Of a stretch of DNA of 64,000 nt, positions 44,175 through 64,000 are shown in pieces (position 1 is the first letter of the stretch; each line of letters starts with the position of its first letter). This DNA comes from Liolophura sinensis. Lineage: Eukaryota; Mollusca; Polyplacophora; Chitonida; Chitonidae. Location: NCBI RefSeq assembly GCF_032854445.1, contig NC_088301.1:7684281-7748280 (forward strand). The letters run 5' to 3'. The translations under genes were made by a program, and so were the position numbers. The notes below the pieces were generated by a model, which worked only from the letters and a program-made list of their open reading frames with translations, did not search any database and had not been told where the DNA came from.

Positions 44175-47100
44175 CTGTACAAAACAGAAAATAAAGATAA
44201 CATGTGGACATAGGATGGTCAATTCACATTTACCTCTGAGTTCACCTATAGCAAAGTTATCACAGGCAAAAACCTTCATCAAAAGGATCTCAGTGTTAAA
44301 ATCAGACTTCAGTCCTAACACAGGGCTTGAACAATACAGATAAAAGAAGACAAAGCCTTAAACTAAACGTTAAAAAATTAATAAAAAATAAAACTAACCA
44401 AAAAAGGACTAACCACTAAAGTTGTTTTTTATATTCCAGCTAATATTTGAATAACAAAAGTTGCTTTGTGGATACAGACACAGTTTAACTACATTTCACA
44501 GAAGTACAATAATGAGGATTTTTTCAAAAGTAAACATTTGTGGAAGACATTACTAAAACAGTGACTAAAACAGATTTCAGTTATGACCAGTGCATTTCAT
44601 ATTGGCCATGAATAAAATACGAGTATTTTAAGTGTAATTTAATTAAAACTTTATTATTTACATCTGTTCACAACTCAGCCAATTCTCCACCACTGTATTT
44701 ACCTGTGTCATCATGATTTACAATAAGGCTATTATATCAAAACAGTCAAACAACCAACTCTGACACCTTTCCCAACAAATAGCATGTATTGACAGCTGTA
44801 TCTACTGAGTCAGCATTTTCCATGCCTCTGTGTATTTGTTTTGTAAATCATTCACATGAAAAGTACTATTATTATTATTATTATTATTATTACACGCCAA
44901 AGCAGCATCTCCATCAATTTGGGTTAAGTGTTAATAAAAGAAAATTAAAACTAAACATTTCAAAAACAAAACCAAAAACATACATGCACACAGTAAATCA
45001 CCTGTCTATAATTTCATGGAATTTCCCTCCCAAATGCTGCATAAACTGTAGTTAAGTTATGAGATTTACTGTTAATTAGACATTAAAAATTCCAAGTGAT
45101 TTTTCACAACCTTAGTGATCCATGTTAGGATAGGTCATTTACTATATACTTTTATATAAAAATAAAAAAGCTCACCAAAACTGCTTAAAGGAAAATATAT
45201 CACAGCAACCTATAATTCCCCAGCACATCAAACTCATCACACCCCAAGAAATAATGAAGCCTCACAAATTCACCTGTCAGCAGAGGGCCTAATAGCTGGT
45301 ATGTTACACTGCTACTGAATGTATCGTGTAACTGAGTGACGATAGCATGCACATGGTAATTTATATACTACGATAAACAATGTGTGCAATGATTGCTCAC
45401 ATACATTACAACACTTGGAGGCAAAATGATTTTACCATCTATCATATTTATTTATTTGATTGGTGTTTTATGTTGTACTCAAGAATGTTTCACTTATACA
45501 ATGGTGGCCAGCATTATGGTGGGAGGAAATGGGGCATGCACCAAGGGAAACCCATGACTGCTCGCATGTTGCTTGCAGACCTTCCCATGTACCGCCGGAG
45601 AGGAAACCAGCATGAGCTGGACATGAGCGAATGCATTGGTGAGAGGCTACCTACCTTTAACCCGCATCTTTATTTTGAAATATGCACTAAAAATATGCAC
45701 AATCACTTGAACAGCCATCTTTCTTAATTCATTCTAAAGAGAACATGATTCTCGGTCTAACTCGACAAATTTCAGAGATCAAATCAATTAACATCTGTGT
45801 GGAATGTATTGATACGGTAGTATAATCTGGCTGTACTAATGGGGTCACCTGTGAATACAGTTTTCCCTGCTTATTATTTATTTATTTGATTAGTTGTTTA
45901 TGGTGTACTCAAGAATATTTCACTTATACGACGGCAGCCAGCATAATGGTTTGAGGAAACCTGGCAGAGCCTGGGAAATACACGACCATCCGCAGGCTGC
46001 CAACTGACCTTCCCACCTATGGCCTGAGAGGAAGCCAGCAAATGAGCTGGAGATGAACTCACAGTGACCACATTGGTGGAAAGCTCCTGGGTCATCGTGC
46101 CGTGATGGTGTTCTTACCCCCTCGCCCCTTCCTTATTAAGTCAGGAGGATTATCAGGTACCTAGCAAAGCGGGTGGCATTTTAGAACAGACCATCTTCAA
46201 ATAAAAGAACCTGAAAGGCTATTTCATGCTGATTTTTTCTTATTCACAATGGATAAAATGGAAATAAAGACTGAGGCTCTACCGTGGACATTATGGACCT
46301 TATTGAAACCGCTGAAGTACAGCGATGTCACAGATTCTTCTTTTTTTGCTGCTTCAACAAGTTCAATTTAGTTCAAAAAGTCCAGCATATAACCTGACAG
46401 TTTTCTGCATTTTATTTATTGTAATGAAAAAAGATAGTCTCTCCCTTTGATGAAAACACTTCTGTTTCTTGTAGCTAGACTCCTGACCAATGTCATAAAT
46501 GTGCATAATTACAGAGAAAAATATTGATAATAGATACATTAATAAGTATCTTAGCCTTTTCACTTTATCACTTCAAGTTGTTTAAACTTTTATCAGTTCA
46601 CATGAATAGTGGTTAAATGTCATAAGTTTGTTAATGAACAAAACAAAACGCACCCTGATCCAACGTGCCTCCCGACACCAAACTAAACTCATCCATGGTT
46701 GCCAGGTGACTGGCAGTCACCCGACCAGCCTGAGGTGGTTTACCCGGTTCTGCGCTCTTCAGTGGCATTTTTAGCTCGTGGTACTCCGCTGGCTGCTTCT
46801 GTACGTCATATCGTTCCCGTCGGCGTCGTAAACGAGCCAGAAGAAGGGCGATCACTAGAGCCACGATCAACAGGAAGGCCACCAGAGTCACTGCTATAAC
46901 TGTGGGGGAGGACATACAGATCATAGACATCATATTCTATACAGGGGTACCACAAATGTTTTCAGATGAAAAACTCATGAATTCTCAAGACTAGTAGCAC
47001 ACTCTTTTATAAATGATGTAAATAAAATATTTCACCATCATACTGTAATAATTTTTAAAAATTCATGACATTTTTCATGACAATTCATGACAGGGACATT

Positions 47101-59100: not shown

Positions 59101-62100
59101 ACACCAATCAAATAAATAAATAAATATAAACAGGAATAAATGGGCATACAGGGCCTTATACTTTTGCTTATCCCATATGTGGAACTTTCTCCTCATGTGT
59201 CCACTCTGATCAATTCACACCATTTGAAACAGCTACAAGGCGTATTTCCAACACGAATCACGTTTTAATTATGTCTCATATGTAAACAAACTGCAAAAAA
59301 CAAAGTCACCGAAATTATTTTAAAAATGACCAAACATTCTCAAATTTCTGATTCCCAATTAATGCAGGTCCACATCTTTCACAAAAGCACCTGAGAGTCT
59401 CGCATCATAGTATAACATAATTATAAATATAGAATCCGGAAACTTACTTTCACTTAAAGCAACTGGTAACAGATATGAGCTACATTTTGAGTTCTGCAAA
59501 GCAAATCTACTGGAACAAATAATGCCTGAGCTATCTGGCTTATTTAAGAAGTACGCGTTACTCACATGTTCCTGTGCCCAGGTCTGTCTCCACCACCACG
59601 TCTCCCAGTCTTGTCAGATACACCAGGATGTAGTCTCCAGTTCTGACAACAAAACACAGACACATACACATAGCTTTGGTATCAGTTATAGCTGTTGGTT
59701 CCACGCACACAAGGCAGACAATGCAGAAGCAACATTACCCCCATACATTGGGCAAATTGGCATGAACCATCCTAATGATGAGAACACCAAATTTTTTTTA
59801 TATCTGTCTATGTGAGTCGAAAAATGAAAATGTTTCAAACTCACCTAGAGCTGTAGACAAAAGCTAGGACGACCCTCTCTGTGTTGGCTGTGCTGTTAGC
59901 GGTGAAATGAACAGTGAGACGTTCTGTGCTGCTTGATGCAGCCAATGATGTGGCATCTAGCTTCACTTTTGATCTCACCACTGTGCTCCCATCAAATATG
60001 CCCGATGGCTCTGCAATGAGACAAGAGCCACCAAATCTCAGGTAAATATGATTTCAAAATATTATTTGCATATGCCGTATTTGAAACTGCATATTTTAAG
60101 TGCTATCCTATATTTTACAGGGGGCCCTCCGTGGCTCGGTTAGTTATCGCGCTAGCGCAGCATAATGAGGAGTCTCTCACCATGCTGGCCTCCTCTCCGG
60201 CCGTACGCAGGAAGGTCTGCCAGCAACCTGCAGATGGTTGTGGGTTTTCCCCGGGCTTTGCCCGGTTTCCACCCACCATAATGCTGGCCGCCGTTGTATA
60301 AGTGAAATATTCTTGAGTATGGCGTAAAACACCAAATAAATATTATTTAAACAATTATCAAATAAATAAATATATGTTACACATGATGTAAACACATAAC
60401 TATTACACTGATACATTTATCTGTCTGAAAGGTGATCTTGATTTGTAAATGTTTCATACTGTGACACTGGTACATTTACCTGTCTGACAAGTGATCCCTG
60501 TGTAGTAAGAGTTCATACAGTCACATTGGTACTCTCCTTCCCACAATTCCACACAAAGGCCTCCATTCTTACAGCCCTGCTTTTCACAGCCTGCTATGCA
60601 TCCCACAGATGTACCTGCATATCACAAAAAAAGAGAGCGATATGTAAGAAAAACAATTTCATATATTTATTTATTTATTTGATTGGTGTTTTACGCCATA
60701 CTCAAGAATATTTCACTTTTACGACCGCGGCCAGCATTATGGTGGGAGGAAACTGGGCACAGCCCGGGGGAAACCCACAACCATCCGCAAGCTGCTGGAA
60801 GACCTTCCCACTTATGACCAAAGAGGAAGCCAGCATGAGCTGGACTTGAACTCACAGCGACCGCATTGGTGAGAGGCTCCTGGGTCATTACACTGCGCTA
60901 GCACACTAACCAACTGAGCCACGGAGGCCCCTCAATTTCTTATACATGTAATGAAAGTTTGTCCAGTCCAAACTCATTAAGTTTAATAAAGCAACCTTTG
61001 ATAAGCTCACGATTTCAAGGCCTAATCGACTAGTCTGACATCCATCATATGTACAAGTTAAAGCAGAATCCTCACATGATACTCTATGTTTCTGACGGTA
61101 TATTTCCAACAACCTACCATTTTGATACTCTGCAGATCCCTCTAAATCAAAGATGTACTCGTTGCTACGGAAACCGCGGACACAGCCATGCAGAGTCGCT
61201 GGCGTAATTTTAGTCTTCATCTCCTTAGGAACACCCCCCACGTAAAGCTTTATGAATGGGTCAGGAGGAAGCTCTCCTCTGATTGGCCGAACAGATTCTG
61301 TCAAAACATTAACAGTCAGATATGATAAACCTGTCAATGTATCATTTTATTTACGAACTTGTGTCACTAGTCTGTCACTAGTCTTTCACTCTTTACTCTA
61401 GAATATTTAACTTATATCTCAACAATGGATTCAACTTATATCTCAACAAAAGCAGCACAGATTTTCACTTTACCCTTTATCACTTATTTATATCCACACC
61501 AAACTGAAAATTCCTCAATATTCTGGATATTTTGTAAAAAAATCTAAGCTTTCAAATGACAGATTGAAAGTTTAACTTTCAGAGTTTCTCTTTGTCTGAC
61601 TTCAGCAATGCCATATGCCTACCTCGAGAGTTGAAGGGTTTGGAGAGGTAGGTCCTCAGCAGGGCTCGCTTCTGTTGGATTACCCTGCTGATCTTACCAC
61701 ACTGGAGCTTAAGCCAGCCACTGTCCAGCTTTTCGATGATCACCTGCTTCCAGTTGCCATCGTTCAAGTCTGTCAAGCAGAAATATTGATGCAGAGCTAA
61801 GGTTAATTTATACATTTATTTTTGGTTATTTGATTGCTGAATATTAAAGTGAAGTCTCAAAGTCTGCCACTATATATACATAGAAAAAATGATAAACGAC
61901 AGAGTTATCACAGGAAAGTACGTAAAAAATTCTATAAAGTTTTGAAAGCTGAGAAGATGAAGTTCAGCACTGGGGATATGGCACTGAAGGACAATTCACT
62001 CCAACTAGCCATATTGTAGAAGCCCTTCTGGATCAATAGTGCTGGAAGCGTCACAAGATAATTGGCTGTCATGTCAAAAACCCTATTTGCTCTTGATTGT

Positions 62101-63486
62101 CAGTGTGGTTTTGTATGGTGAATAGACAGATATTTTTGCAATCAGTTGAATTTTACGGTTAGTTTAAGTGTGAAACTGATGCATTTCGAACCACACTTTT
62201 GAACTGCCTGTGTCACAATGTGTACATGTTGGGCAGGATACTGCAGTAGCTTTACAGGGTGAGCTGGCATGAAAACCTCAGGAGAGTCATTGGTCAAAGA
62301 AAAATACTGTGACTTTGCATTATTTTTCCTCAGCAAAGTCAGATTTATTGCAAAAACATCTTCCCGAAATCTGATTGAAAGGGTCTGTTATCAATCAGAA
62401 GGTCCTGCTATGTTCGGTAAATTTGGTAGAGCCAGGTAGGCCAAATGCTTACACCCATGTAGGACGAGGACAAGGCTTGTGTCCACAAACATCACCCTGA
62501 CCAAGCACCAAACTAAAATCTTTGTGAAAGAAACATCATCCCTTTGAACAAGAAACAGAGCTGATACTCTTTGGTTGGCTATCAGGCGTTTTTGTTTGTA
62601 TTTTCTCATTGTCACATTGTTTAATCCTGATGGTATGGGAGAGCACAAAATAGGTTTTGTGACGTTAGCAAGAGGCTCTAATCATTAGGCCACTGAAATG
62701 GTCCCATTGGTGGGTTGTACAAGATGGATTTCCCTGTGCATTTACCCTGATTTCATTTAGCCTTGACTCATCTCTGACCTCTCAACTGATATACGTTCAG
62801 GACTTGTACAAAAAGAGATCTTCCCAAGAACATGACCTTAAAAACACTGACTCAATTTAACCTTAACTCACCTCTGACCTTTATGAACTGATCAATGACA
62901 CATTAGTACATTAATAGCAAGTACAGAAGGAGAATTTTCCCAAGAATGTACCCTTACAATTATGAATCAACTTATAACTTGACCTTGACTCACCTCTGAC
63001 CTTTATGAACTGATCAATGATACATTAGTACATTAATAGCAAGTACAGAAGGAGAATTTTCCCAAGAATGTACCCTTACAATTATGAATCAACTTATAAC
63101 TTGACCTTGACTCACCTCTGACCTTTATGAACTGATCAATGACACATTAGTACATTAATAGCAAGTACAGAAGGAGAATTTTCCCAAGAATGTACCCTTA
63201 CAATTATGAATCAACTTATAACTTGACCTTGACTCACCTCTGACCGGTATGAATTCATCAATGATGTACGTTAGTGAGTTGTACAGAAGGAGAATTTCTC
63301 GAGCATTTCTCAGCTCCAGCTGTATGAAGTTGTTGAAGTGGTCATGCATATAGAAGAGGAGAGCGTTGGCCTGGAATGTCCTGAAGCTGAAGACAAGTGT
63401 GCCAGATAGGACTCTGGGCGTTGTTACGTTCACTTCTAGGTACGAGTGCTCTGCACCATCAATGGTGGCCATGTTCTCATCAATAT
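38314..63486 (-). CDS. LamG-EGF-LamG type I membrane protein (neurexin/Caspr/axotactin-like), 3' part, 17 exons
   Basis: Exons in transcript order: 63486-63238, 61769-61623, 61297-61118, 60614-60480, 60010-59845, 59642-59566, 57919-57834, 57194-57147, 55528-55393, 51907-51714, 48503-48371, 46899-46654, 44174-44125, 42875-42764, 42209-42085, 41029-40922, 38556-38314 (stop 38314-38316). Splice sites are GT-AG and all phases join; 810 residues plus stop, first exon entered in phase 1. Order: LamG, EGF, LamG, short stalk with NIT sites, one TM helix, about 272-residue cytoplasmic tail. LNS-EGF-LNS is the neurexin module, and Caspr and axotactin also use it, but the tail lacks the neurexin 4.1/PDZ end I know. 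The N-terminus is off the right edge. A role as an adhesion receptor is inferred from domains only. Confidence 0.85.
40165..40268. repeat. 32-bp tandem repeat, three copies
   Basis: 'aggagactcacttcataatt' plus 'atatgcacgtc' repeats at about 40174, 40206 and 40238 inside the last intron of the LamG gene. Confidence 0.85.
44020..44112. repeat. 34-bp tandem repeat, about 2.5 copies
   Basis: 'aacgtgaaaacagacaaatt' plus 'ctagggaaaggaaa' repeats just downstream, in transcript sense, of the exon at 44125-44174, only about 13 bases from its donor. Confidence 0.85.
44866..44892. repeat. (TTA)n microsatellite
   Basis: About eight to nine consecutive TTA/ATT units in an intron of the LamG gene. Confidence 0.95.
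45445..45650 (-). repeat. tRNA-derived SINE (family A), reversed
   Basis: Begins 'tttatttatttgattggtgt' (the 3' tail of the element), passes 'cagcattatggtgggaggaa' and ends near 'catgagctggacatgagcga', the reverse of the B-box side. The head is missing past 'attggtgagagg'. Confidence 0.9.
45872..46110 (-). repeat. tRNA-derived SINE (family A), reversed, second adjacent copy
   Basis: Same order of blocks as the copy 220 bases to its left: 'tttatttatttgattagttg', 'cagcataatggtttgaggaa', 'agccagcaaatgagctggag', then 'gctcctgggtcatcg'. The two lie head to tail in the intron between the TM exon and exon 44125-44174. Confidence 0.88.
46654..46899 (-). CDS. Transmembrane exon with basic stop-transfer and YHEL motif
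   Basis: Encodes the hydrophobic run AVTLVAFLLIVALVIALLLA followed directly by RLRRRRERYD, a textbook type I stop-transfer. The cytoplasmic part contains EYHELKMPL, a Yxx-hydrophobic motif of the kind used for adaptor-mediated endocytosis, and TMDEFSLVSGGTLDQ. The donor 'gtgcgt' is less common than 'gtaagt' or 'gtgagt' but phase and flanks fit. Confidence 0.88.
47205..47400 (-). repeat. Family B fragment with internal ~105-bp duplication
   Basis: 'gtaatgtgcctccttgtttg' and 'caggacagatttccaccaca' appear near 47255-47297 and again near 47347-47386. The reverse complement matches the 'gtggaaatctgtcctgcaac' part of family B at 58270-58300. Upstream of it lies 'tttaaccttttatctcacaa' and another related piece at 47805-47880. 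Confidence 0.7.
48371..48503 (-). CDS. Juxtamembrane stalk exon
   Basis: Encodes IVTMPPWDKGPAEVELIQPI followed by NITNITRIVPIITSSTDYLT. Two Asn-Ile-Thr sequons suggest N-glycosylation close to the membrane. No fold is recognised. It is entered in phase 0 and leaves in phase 1 into the TM exon. Confidence 0.8.
49231..49257 (+). other. G-run cluster (possible G-quadruplex)
   Basis: Three runs of 7, 6 and 7 G separated by single bases (A, T) lie between 49235 and 49256. Each run can supply two GGG tracts, so an intramolecular quadruplex is possible on the plus strand, which is the template strand of the LamG gene. Confidence 0.6.
51714..60010 (-). CDS. Second LamG domain, optional 48-bp exon, and Pro-rich stalk start
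   Basis: Exon 60010-59845 starts EPSGIFDGSTVV and contains LTVHFTANST and VVLAFVYSSR; 59642-59566 gives GDYILVYLTRLGDVVVETDL; 57919-57834 gives DDQRHKLEYKRRQTELSLT, the strand before the LD turn. 57194-57147 is a 16-residue phase 0-0 exon (LDPFEGNKSSVIDLAE). 55528-55393 gives LDQDRPSTVVHPDY, DTIMVGGVVLN and NFTGCLS. 51907-51714 completes the fold with DVVYYPLANSVLKFQPL and continues into an acidic, Pro-rich stalk (MEKPQQEIPSSPSDSESRPE). Without the 48-bp exon the protein reads ELSLT-LDQD, a normal LamG strand-turn, so that exon is probably alternative. Confidence 0.85.
51930..52400. repeat. 28-bp minisatellite beside a LamG-gene acceptor
   Basis: About sixteen degenerate copies of 'gtagcatcacagtattctca' plus 'atcactca', with alternating variants ('atcatgta', 'atcctgca'; 'cacagtattc', 'caaagtgttc'). 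In transcript sense the array ends about 22 bases upstream of the 3' splice site of exon 51907-51714. Confidence 0.92.
53033..53060 (-). pseudogene. 28-bp exact copy of LamG exon fragment in intron
   Basis: Identical to 55396-55423, the 3' end of exon 55528-55393 that encodes NYQNFTGCLS. Homology stops abruptly on both sides and the donor is not preserved. It lies in the intron downstream of the source exon, in the same orientation. Confidence 0.85.
57147..57194 (-). CDS. Candidate alternative 16-residue exon in the second LamG domain
   Basis: Acceptor 'ccatag' and donor 'gtgagt' enclose exactly 48 bases, phase 0 on both sides. The insert LDPFEGNKSSVIDLAE begins with the same LD (CTGGAC) as the next exon, so skipping restores a canonical LamG sequence. 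Neurexins carry comparable short splice inserts in LNS loops. Inclusion cannot be proven from DNA alone. Confidence 0.65.
58055..58360 (+). repeat. Dispersed repeat family B, LamG intron copy
   Basis: 'gggtcaatcctgggtcgggt', 'ctgtatcagtataatggctc', 'cttgcctttggtaagttgtc', 'ggtggaaatctgtcctgcaa' follow the same order as at 19955-20265, ending with 'atgatgaaaaaattgttcag'. Confidence 0.75.
58968..59128 (+). repeat. tRNA-derived SINE (family A), 5'-truncated
   Basis: Starts 'ctctccggactttggtggga', has 'ggtctgccagcaacctgcgg', a small internal duplication around 'cagtttcctcccacggtttc', and ends 'caccaatcaaataaataaat'. The '...tgaaatattcttgagtacggcg' part is deleted. Confidence 0.85.
60121..60343 (+). 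repeat. tRNA-derived SINE (family A), with A-box head
   Basis: Begins 'ggggccctccgtggctcggt' 'tagttatcgcgctagcgca', an A-box-like tRNA head, then jumps to 'ctcctctccggccgtacgca' (B-box segment deleted) and ends 'gtatggcgtaaaacaccaaa'. It lies about 140 bases downstream, in gene sense, of the EGF exon. Confidence 0.92.
60480..60614 (-). CDS. Single-exon EGF-like domain
   Basis: A phase 1-1 exon of 135 bases encodes GCIAGCEKQGCKNGGLCVEL and YQCDCMNSYYTGITCQT. The CxNGGxC, CxC and G-x-x-C spacing is that of an EGF repeat between two LamG domains, as in neurexin and Caspr. No Ca-binding DxNE-type motif is evident at its start. The exon sits between two oppositely oriented SINEs (60121-60343 and 60662-60931). 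Confidence 0.9.
60662..60931 (-). repeat. tRNA-derived SINE (family A), near full length, reversed
   Basis: From 'tttatttatttatttgattg' to 'ccaactgagccacggaggcc'. It contains the reverse of a B-box ('ggacttgaactcacagcgac') and of an A-box ('gcgctagcacactaaccaac'), so it is the most complete copy here. It starts about 48 bases upstream, in gene sense, of the EGF exon acceptor. Confidence 0.94.
61118..63486 (-). CDS. First LamG domain (three exons)
   Basis: Exon 63486-63238 encodes TIDGAEHSYLEVNV, LVFSFRTFQANALLFYMHD and FIQLELRNAREILLLYN, a typical LamG beta-sandwich start. Exon 61769-61623 gives DGNWKQVIIEKLDSGWLKLQ, matching the conserved 'W..V...R....L.VD' strands. Exon 61297-61118 gives PFIKLYVGGVPKE and LHGCVRGFRSNEY, the YVGGxP and GC(V/I)R landmarks that close the fold. 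All three junctions are phase 1, the usual phase for shuffled extracellular modules. The donor of the first exon lies inside a 122-bp tandem array (see repeat entry). Confidence 0.88.
62771..63236 (-). repeat. 122-bp tandem array built from an exon tail plus donor
   Basis: Units start at 62871, 62993 and 63115, exact 122-bp spacing, and the next unit start (63237) is the 3' end of the real exon 63486-63238. A more diverged unit starts at 62771. Units B and C differ by about one base from A. Each unit carries the reverse complement of 'ggtcagaggtgagtcaaggt', that is the exon end and its 5' splice site, and 'gaaaattctccttctgtac' from the exon interior. Frame is lost in the copies. Confidence 0.93.
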
Positions 63487-63807
63487 CTGGGAAGAGAGCA
63501 TGAATATTCATTGATTACTGACTCGGGTATAAATCTGAATGTATCTCCATCAAATAATAAAAAAAACAGGACAGAAATGACAGATACTTCAACTATTGAC
63601 CCATTTTAACGTAACCTTACAAGCCAAGCAAACGCAAGGATTTCAACAAATGCACTGAAGGAATCTCCAAACTCTTCAGGTCCTCGTACAGATGATAAAC
63701 ACAAATGCATCTGATACAGAATGGGAAAACATGTGTGGCATCCTACAGATGTGAAACCAAGCCAACATACAACCATTAAAGTCAACAAATGATACTGGCA
63801 TTTTGTA

Positions 63808-64000
63808 TTTACTCTGTTGAGAATTGGTGCTTATGTGTTCTTCACCACTATTTAATACTCTACACTTAATGACAGTTTATGCCCGTATGATGACACCAGA
63901 AGACTTTGTTGATAGTTGGAGCTCACGTGTTCACCAAGAGTACTTAATCTCTTGACAGTTGAAGCCCAGGTGTTCACCACGAGTACTTACTCCGTTGACA
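63808..64000. repeat. Decayed ~49-bp tandem array at the right edge
   Basis: Variants of 'gtgttcaccacgagtactta' followed by 'ctctgttgacagttggagct' recur about four times; the last is cut by the window edge. No exon is recognised between 63487 and 64000, although the upstream part of the LamG gene must lie further right. Confidence 0.7.

Follow-up and report, generated by a model that had tools for sequence, protein, structure and literature searches.

When the tail of an exon is copied several times into the following intron together with its 5′ splice site (donor), which of the equivalent donors ends the exon, and do the copies matter to the gene? This question is raised by an array of 122-bp units in a 64,000-nt stretch (the window) of contig 7 (NC_088301.1, positions 7,684,281 to 7,748,280) of the 609-Mb genome of the mollusc Liolophura sinensis, where a receptor-like gene on the minus strand (the array gene) carries the array directly behind its LamG exon 63486-63238. 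A first-pass annotation made from the letters of the window had described at least three near-identical 122-bp units plus one older unit, and had proposed that they might tune expression or form a hypervariable locus. Our analysis indicates that the array is in all probability a "mirage", a minisatellite spanning an exon-intron boundary of the kind described in lancelets, and that it is most likely a functionally neutral by-product of a minisatellite-rich genome.

The 122-bp array and its exon

The features that make up the locus, in window coordinates, are the following.

63238..63486, minus strand: authentic LamG exon (249 nt, phase 1-1) with in-frame joins on both sides, the outermost copy (u0 tail)
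63186..63237, minus strand: authentic donor GAG/GTGAGT (G at 63237) and first 52 nt of the intron, the same as the intron part of u1 and u2
63064..63179, minus strand: spare unit u1, with a 64-nt pseudo-exon tail, intact donor 63115 and a 52-nt intron part
62942..63057, minus strand: spare unit u2, with intact donor 62993
62820..62935, minus strand: spare unit u3, with a tail equal to that of u1, intact donor 62871 and a diverged intron part
62720..62835, minus strand: older unit u4, with a diverged tail and dead donor 62771, overlapping the u3 intron part as the units are bookkept here
61623..61769, minus strand: next exon, in frame with the authentic donor

The annotated units are real. Tandem Repeats Finder (TRF) reports an array at 62860-63264 (period 122, 3.3 copies, 97% matches, score 768), a repeat search returned three 168-nt copies that are 96-100% alike and spaced 122 and 122 nt apart, and aligning the exon tail with those of the spares gives 49 matches over 57 aligned positions, with 8 gap columns. 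Each unit consists of the last ~64 nt of the exon, the donor GAG/GTGAGT and the first ~52 nt of the intron. The donor copies read GAGGTGAGT, with intron base 1 at 63237 (real) and at 63115, 62993 and 62871 (intact spares); the annotation had placed the real donor correctly and the spares one base off, at 63114, 62992 and 62870. All four score 11.8 bits, in agreement with its description of four equivalent donors in a row. A fifth, older copy at 62771 reads GAGATGAGT and is dead, its GT having become AT; three of the four spares at this array thus carry an intact donor. When the 60-nt segment across the junction was aligned to the adjoining 600 nt of intron (a score of at least 25 being counted as an array), the score was 50, while single-base-shuffled targets of the sampled donors never rose above 17, which rules out chance.

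The tails of u1-u3 show 0-1 differences over 64 positions (98-100% alike), and that of u4 is 68-80% alike to them. Across 52 nt, u0, u1 and u2 have identical intron parts, the u3 intron part and all of u4 have diverged, and u2 has a substitution of its own. As annotated, the array looks young and is built from the exon tail and its 5′ splice site; the near-identity of the units makes copy-number variation or hypervariability plausible. A diverged copy at the far edge combined with near-identical units near the exon suggests that the first duplication is old and that the unit running from donor to pseudo-exon end multiplied recently. We propose that a short tandem duplication across the exon-intron boundary seeded the minisatellite, and that the duplications would have come from slippage or unequal exchange, as in the rest of a genome so rich in minisatellites. 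Such arrays may be tolerated because the copies go to the intron side and leave the outermost exon end and donor untouched.

The exon end at 63238 is confirmed by the in-frame join to 61769 (..IPVR/DLNDGNWK..), which lies within a row of 12 exons (71413 to 59845, coordinates continued past the window) that form one frame with 0 stops. Splicing would accordingly be expected at the outermost donor, 63237. As the annotation had predicted, choosing any donor further on would introduce a premature stop, since an in-frame stop lies 80 nt beyond the real donor, ahead of the first spare; the unit length also breaks the frame for the first two spares. Transcripts from occasional use of a spare would run into this stop and be removed by decay. 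The claim that the units had acquired frame-breaking changes needs some correction: retention of the intron is interrupted by the same stop, but the unit tail itself can still be read in frame with the exon and contains a single stop (KILLLYLLLMY*CVIDQFIKVR vs EILLLYNSLTYIIDEFIPVR).

The array gene has an EGF domain above the Pfam cut-off. Its LamG-like exons in the window fall slightly under theirs (for exon 63486-63238, Laminin_G_2 with E 1.8e-4 and 22.4 bits vs a cut-off of 22.9), and one LamG-like exon slightly upstream in the gene, at C7:7749917-7750144, is above it. Among solved structures the joined protein is most similar to neurexin-1-alpha (E 4.7e-42); the gene's predicted product is a cell-surface receptor of the neurexin superfamily. 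A hydrophobic exon at 46899, outside the continuous joined frame, probably encodes the membrane span, and a fibrinogen-like stretch was read by eye. By its domain order the product may be a receptor of the Caspr, neurexin IV or axotactin type.

Whole-assembly searches with the locus and the array, using a search that skips very common words, found only this locus. A dispersed repeat or a paralogous source of the units was considered and rejected: queried with the locus, with the array and with the protein encoded by the exon, the genome gave only this locus and one weak LamG match (E 0.13). No structured RNA family reached its gathering score within 60000-64000. Elsewhere in the window, 60700-60930 is a dispersed-repeat-like stretch ending in AATAAATAAATAAAT, and similar translated fragments occur several times in the window.

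Arrays at other exon ends

The array behind exon 63486-63238 has company. Five donors of the array gene, 63237 and four more, lie in arrays made from an exon tail and its 5′ splice site, and a mirror case affects an acceptor.

Donor 71152, minus strand: donor array, 56-bp unit
Donor 69490, minus strand: donor array, 41-bp unit
Donor 64177 (177 bases past the window end), minus strand: donor array from an EGF exon tail, 43-bp unit; the window part is 63903..64000 and the array reaches ~216 bases beyond the window
60405..60532, minus strand: donor array at donor 60479 of EGF exon 60614-60480, 59-bp unit; one spare, GT to AT
L003 9680-10000 + L020 1-261, minus strand: acceptor array at acceptor 83559, before the exon starting at L003 9559

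At each of the five donor arrays the frame stays open only with the outermost donor, and an in-frame stop is reached 1-80 nt beyond it, ahead of the first spare. Some six units of 93-95 bp make up the acceptor array, built from the 3′ splice site together with the beginning of a LamG exon; CAG survives in the spare closest to the exon, and the three more distant spares that aligned read CAT. By TRF on the plus strand, 5 of 24 donors vs 0 of 25 acceptors of the array gene lie in arrays, a count that depends on the strand (4/24 donors on the reverse).

We therefore looked at exon ends beyond this gene. The sample is non-random, being taken from the best matches to the families and from stretches of myosin, kinesin and LamG genes that are dense in exons, and added 75 exons from other genes, 13 of 88 listed exons having been dropped for a stop inside the profile match. 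Left out by hand from the loci fetched by family were L005, L008, L011, L035, L042, L045 and L048 (long single-frame, split or stop-bearing matches), eight loci covered by contiguous stretches, L017 (which repeats L006) and 2 of the 5 matches in L053 (overlapping, with stops). Exon ends were set by eye in the array gene and elsewhere with a weight matrix from its 24 donors and 25 acceptors, so that a few may be wrong. As null we used random intron segments at least 200 bp from any mapped junction.

Over all genes, the junction alignment picked up arrays for 10 of the 93 donors and 4 of the 95 acceptors sampled (more safely 9/93 and 3/95, as L052 donor 700 and acceptor 1694 are weaker and none of their spares passes a stricter filter). 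Random intron segments reached the same score at a rate of 14.9% forward (n=1180) and 14.8% backward. Donors are thus not above the intron rate (P(<=10) 0.16), from which we conclude that arrays form as a general process that does not target exon ends, and acceptors are below it (P 0.0009). Exon edges are not preferred by arrays, and acceptors are depleted. The direct contrast between donors and acceptors is weak (Fisher P 0.10). By TRF, the overall counts are 8/93 donors vs 2/95 acceptors (Fisher P 0.057), the myosin, kinesin and other LamG exons contributing 4/69 donors (L038, L052 and two in L061) and 2/70 acceptors (L043 and L058). The share of sequence covered by TRF arrays is 17% far upstream of acceptors but 2.5% beside them, and it declines from ~12% to 8.6% beside donors; a drop that is steep at acceptors and mild at donors would be expected were spare acceptors tolerated less well than spare donors. 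We estimate that about one donor in ten lies in an array, a figure that carries with it the non-random sampling and the predicted exon ends.

In the nine of the ten donor arrays that have recognisable spares, 50 of 57 spare donors keep GT vs 43.5 expected from the other aligned positions, with a standard deviation (sd) of 3.1 that treats the copies as independent, which they are not, 21 of them coming from the single locus L061. Spare acceptors keep AG in 24 of 37 cases vs 29.7 expected (sd 2.3). These counts are rough: of the 7 spares listed for donor 64177, 2 fall beyond the TRF array there, and those of L061, 21 in number, continue from a 66-bp array into a neighbouring one in which the spacing is shorter. 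Spare donors thus do not appear to be purged, as expected if splicing ignores them, and the acceptor counts are suggestive, at most, of purging.

Several further observations concern the sampled loci. After a myosin exon in L061 (reverse strand, donor index 574) there are 21 recognisable spare donors with GT intact in all, spaced 66 bp initially and less further on. In L043, ~12 copies of a 64-bp unit at 773-1529 precede a kinesin exon and hold the acceptor and first codons, with AG kept in 8 of 11 aligned spares. TRF arrays make up 16.7% of the 98.8 kb around myosin and kinesin exons in L022-L051, a high minisatellite load. At G000:C8:37880506-37891931, eight haemocyanin beta-sandwich domains (PF14830, a molluscan family) stand in a row in a complete-looking haemocyanin gene, which speaks for a molluscan host and against a lancelet origin of the genome.

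Weighing the explanations

One rival explanation is that the donors compete, that transcripts using a spare are lost to nonsense-mediated decay, and that array length thereby sets protein output. Duplicated identical donors do compete in in vitro splicing, with the donor closer to the 3′ splice site often winning, and the equal donor scores and the stop that follows use of every spare would suit such a mechanism. Against it, some arrays have living spares and others dead ones, with nothing to suggest that either state is being maintained, and the exon would lengthen from 249 to 371-615 nt, which is unfavourable for exon definition. Normal mRNA has moreover been reported from lancelet mirages, which reportedly leave splicing undisturbed (PMC3087553, PMC3902484). 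We regard this explanation as unlikely. Tuning of expression, as the annotation had it, so far finds no support, the spare donors being neither purged nor clearly kept and the arrays lying at or below the random-intron rate, and is less likely than neutrality. The difference between donors and acceptors invites another reading, in which 5′ splice sites promote tandem duplication through their sequence or a co-transcriptional structure and so seed the arrays. The TRF counts, in the array gene and overall, point in this direction; however, the donor rate in the junction alignment is not above that of random intron, and loss of arrays near acceptors explains the asymmetry equally well. Attraction to donors, which the five arrays in one gene had suggested, was unsupported once the 75 exons of other genes and the random segments were added, and we consider seeding by splice sites improbable.

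Since each unit is shaped GT...AG and regenerates GAG/GTGAGT, the 122-nt units could in principle be removed stepwise by recursive splicing, from GTGAGT to CAGAG, yielding the same mRNA. Such a site has a pyrimidine tract and an AG directly before the regenerated GT; here the sole acceptor candidate scoring above 4 per spare is AAAG/GTC, 7 nt short of the donor, with 4.9 bits and no pyrimidine tract before it, whereas the 25 real acceptors of the array gene score 5.8-17.3. Recursive splicing was rejected on these acceptor scores and has hardly any probability left. The copies might instead be an expansion error of the assembly. Assemblies do err at near-identical tandem units, and one lancelet mirage haplotype is reported as aberrantly assembled in the genome draft (PMC3087553), but u3 and u4 have diverged, one substitution is private to u2, and independent genes carry comparable arrays. 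An array created wholly by misassembly is therefore very improbable, and its copy number may still be wrong.

Folding was also considered. The u1 unit folds at -25.6 kcal/mol (z -3.3), the real exon end at -14.6 (z +1.1), and the whole array has z -3.25. In u1-u3 (62820-63182) the pyrimidine run CUCCUUCUG and the donor region pair in a hairpin, more strongly than in the real exon. The idea that spares mask themselves in this hairpin was rejected: the accessibility of the spare donors does not differ consistently from that of the real donor, and in six other arrays the spares are mostly equally or more accessible, so that there is no general trend.

Some results weigh against a neutral mirage with a reliably chosen outermost donor. 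The choice of donor is inferred from open frames, and a join of 18 exons shows 15 stops, all outside the 12-exon block, which we take to mean that exons are missing on both sides. In the counts given above, GT survives in spare donors slightly more often than other positions do (29 of 36 when L061 is set aside). Donors outside the array gene fall somewhat below the intron null (5/69, P(<=5) 0.044), which suggests that donor arrays may not be wholly free of cost. In the array gene, on the other side, the 5 of 24 donors in arrays somewhat exceed the coverage expectation (shift test P 0.07; at 10.2% coverage, P(>=5 of 24) = 0.09; against the intron null, P 0.28), and this excess leaves room for a donor-linked process.

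Mirages and other boundary-spanning repeats

In humans, internal tandem repeats located at exon-intron boundaries within segmental duplications are reported to affect splicing (PMC2812944). Like the array described here, they are minisatellites at exon-intron boundaries that can supply splice sites; they differ in altering transcripts and in being able to form novel introns, whereas the present array lies inside an existing intron. Intron gain by tandem duplication of a genomic segment carrying AGGT (PMC4974935; the AG/GT duplication model is also named in PMC3087553), resembles our case in that the duplicated segment holds AG/GT and is spliceable in principle. The difference is that the coding sequence shows no new intron: the spare units are already intronic, lying between two exons that join in frame without them.

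The closest counterpart is the mirage of lancelets (amphioxus), a minisatellite-like tandem repeat spanning an exon-intron boundary on its 5′ or 3′ side. Mirages are reported in Adh3, the globins BflGb6 and BflGb9, troponin C and PGBD5, with splice signals in many units, repeats that are homogenised in the middle and diverged towards the edges, haplotypes of differing length, and splicing that stays regular (PMC3087553, PMC3902484). By its sequence, the array behind exon 63486-63238 has the defining features of a mirage that can be judged in this way: the unit spans the boundary, the authentic boundary stands outermost beside the array with the gene readable in the 12-exon frame, many but not all units carry splice signals, and a homogenised interior (u1-u3) is flanked by a diverged edge (u4). 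The two cases differ in that the host here is a mollusc and not a cephalochordate, in that arrays were here counted over sampled exon ends, and in that normal splicing and length instability are reported for lancelets while the present arrays are known from the sequence of one assembly. Searches of open-licence PubMed Central turned up no paper on mirages outside lancelets, and the papers found to use the term for such a structure (PMC3087553, PMC3902484) both concern lancelets; what is new here is the host phylum and a rate for mirages.

Competition between identical tandem 5′ splice sites has, to our knowledge, mostly been studied in engineered transcripts. The arrays offer many natural replicates of competing identical donors with known spacing, copy number and exon context, from which a rule of donor choice could be read with RNA-seq, and in such genomes gene annotation and junction mapping may misplace exon ends. 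Taken all together, and held with somewhat less than even confidence, our results suggest that mirages are not confined to lancelets, that in this mollusc they occur at about one donor in ten and probably at thousands of exons, that the outermost donor is reliably chosen, that donors are more tolerant of arrays than acceptors, that selection by splicing can be read off the arrays, and that the arrays hold a ready reserve of proto-splice sites from which new introns could arise. What had been reported for lancelets is present in a mollusc, and it offers a concrete route for intron gain.

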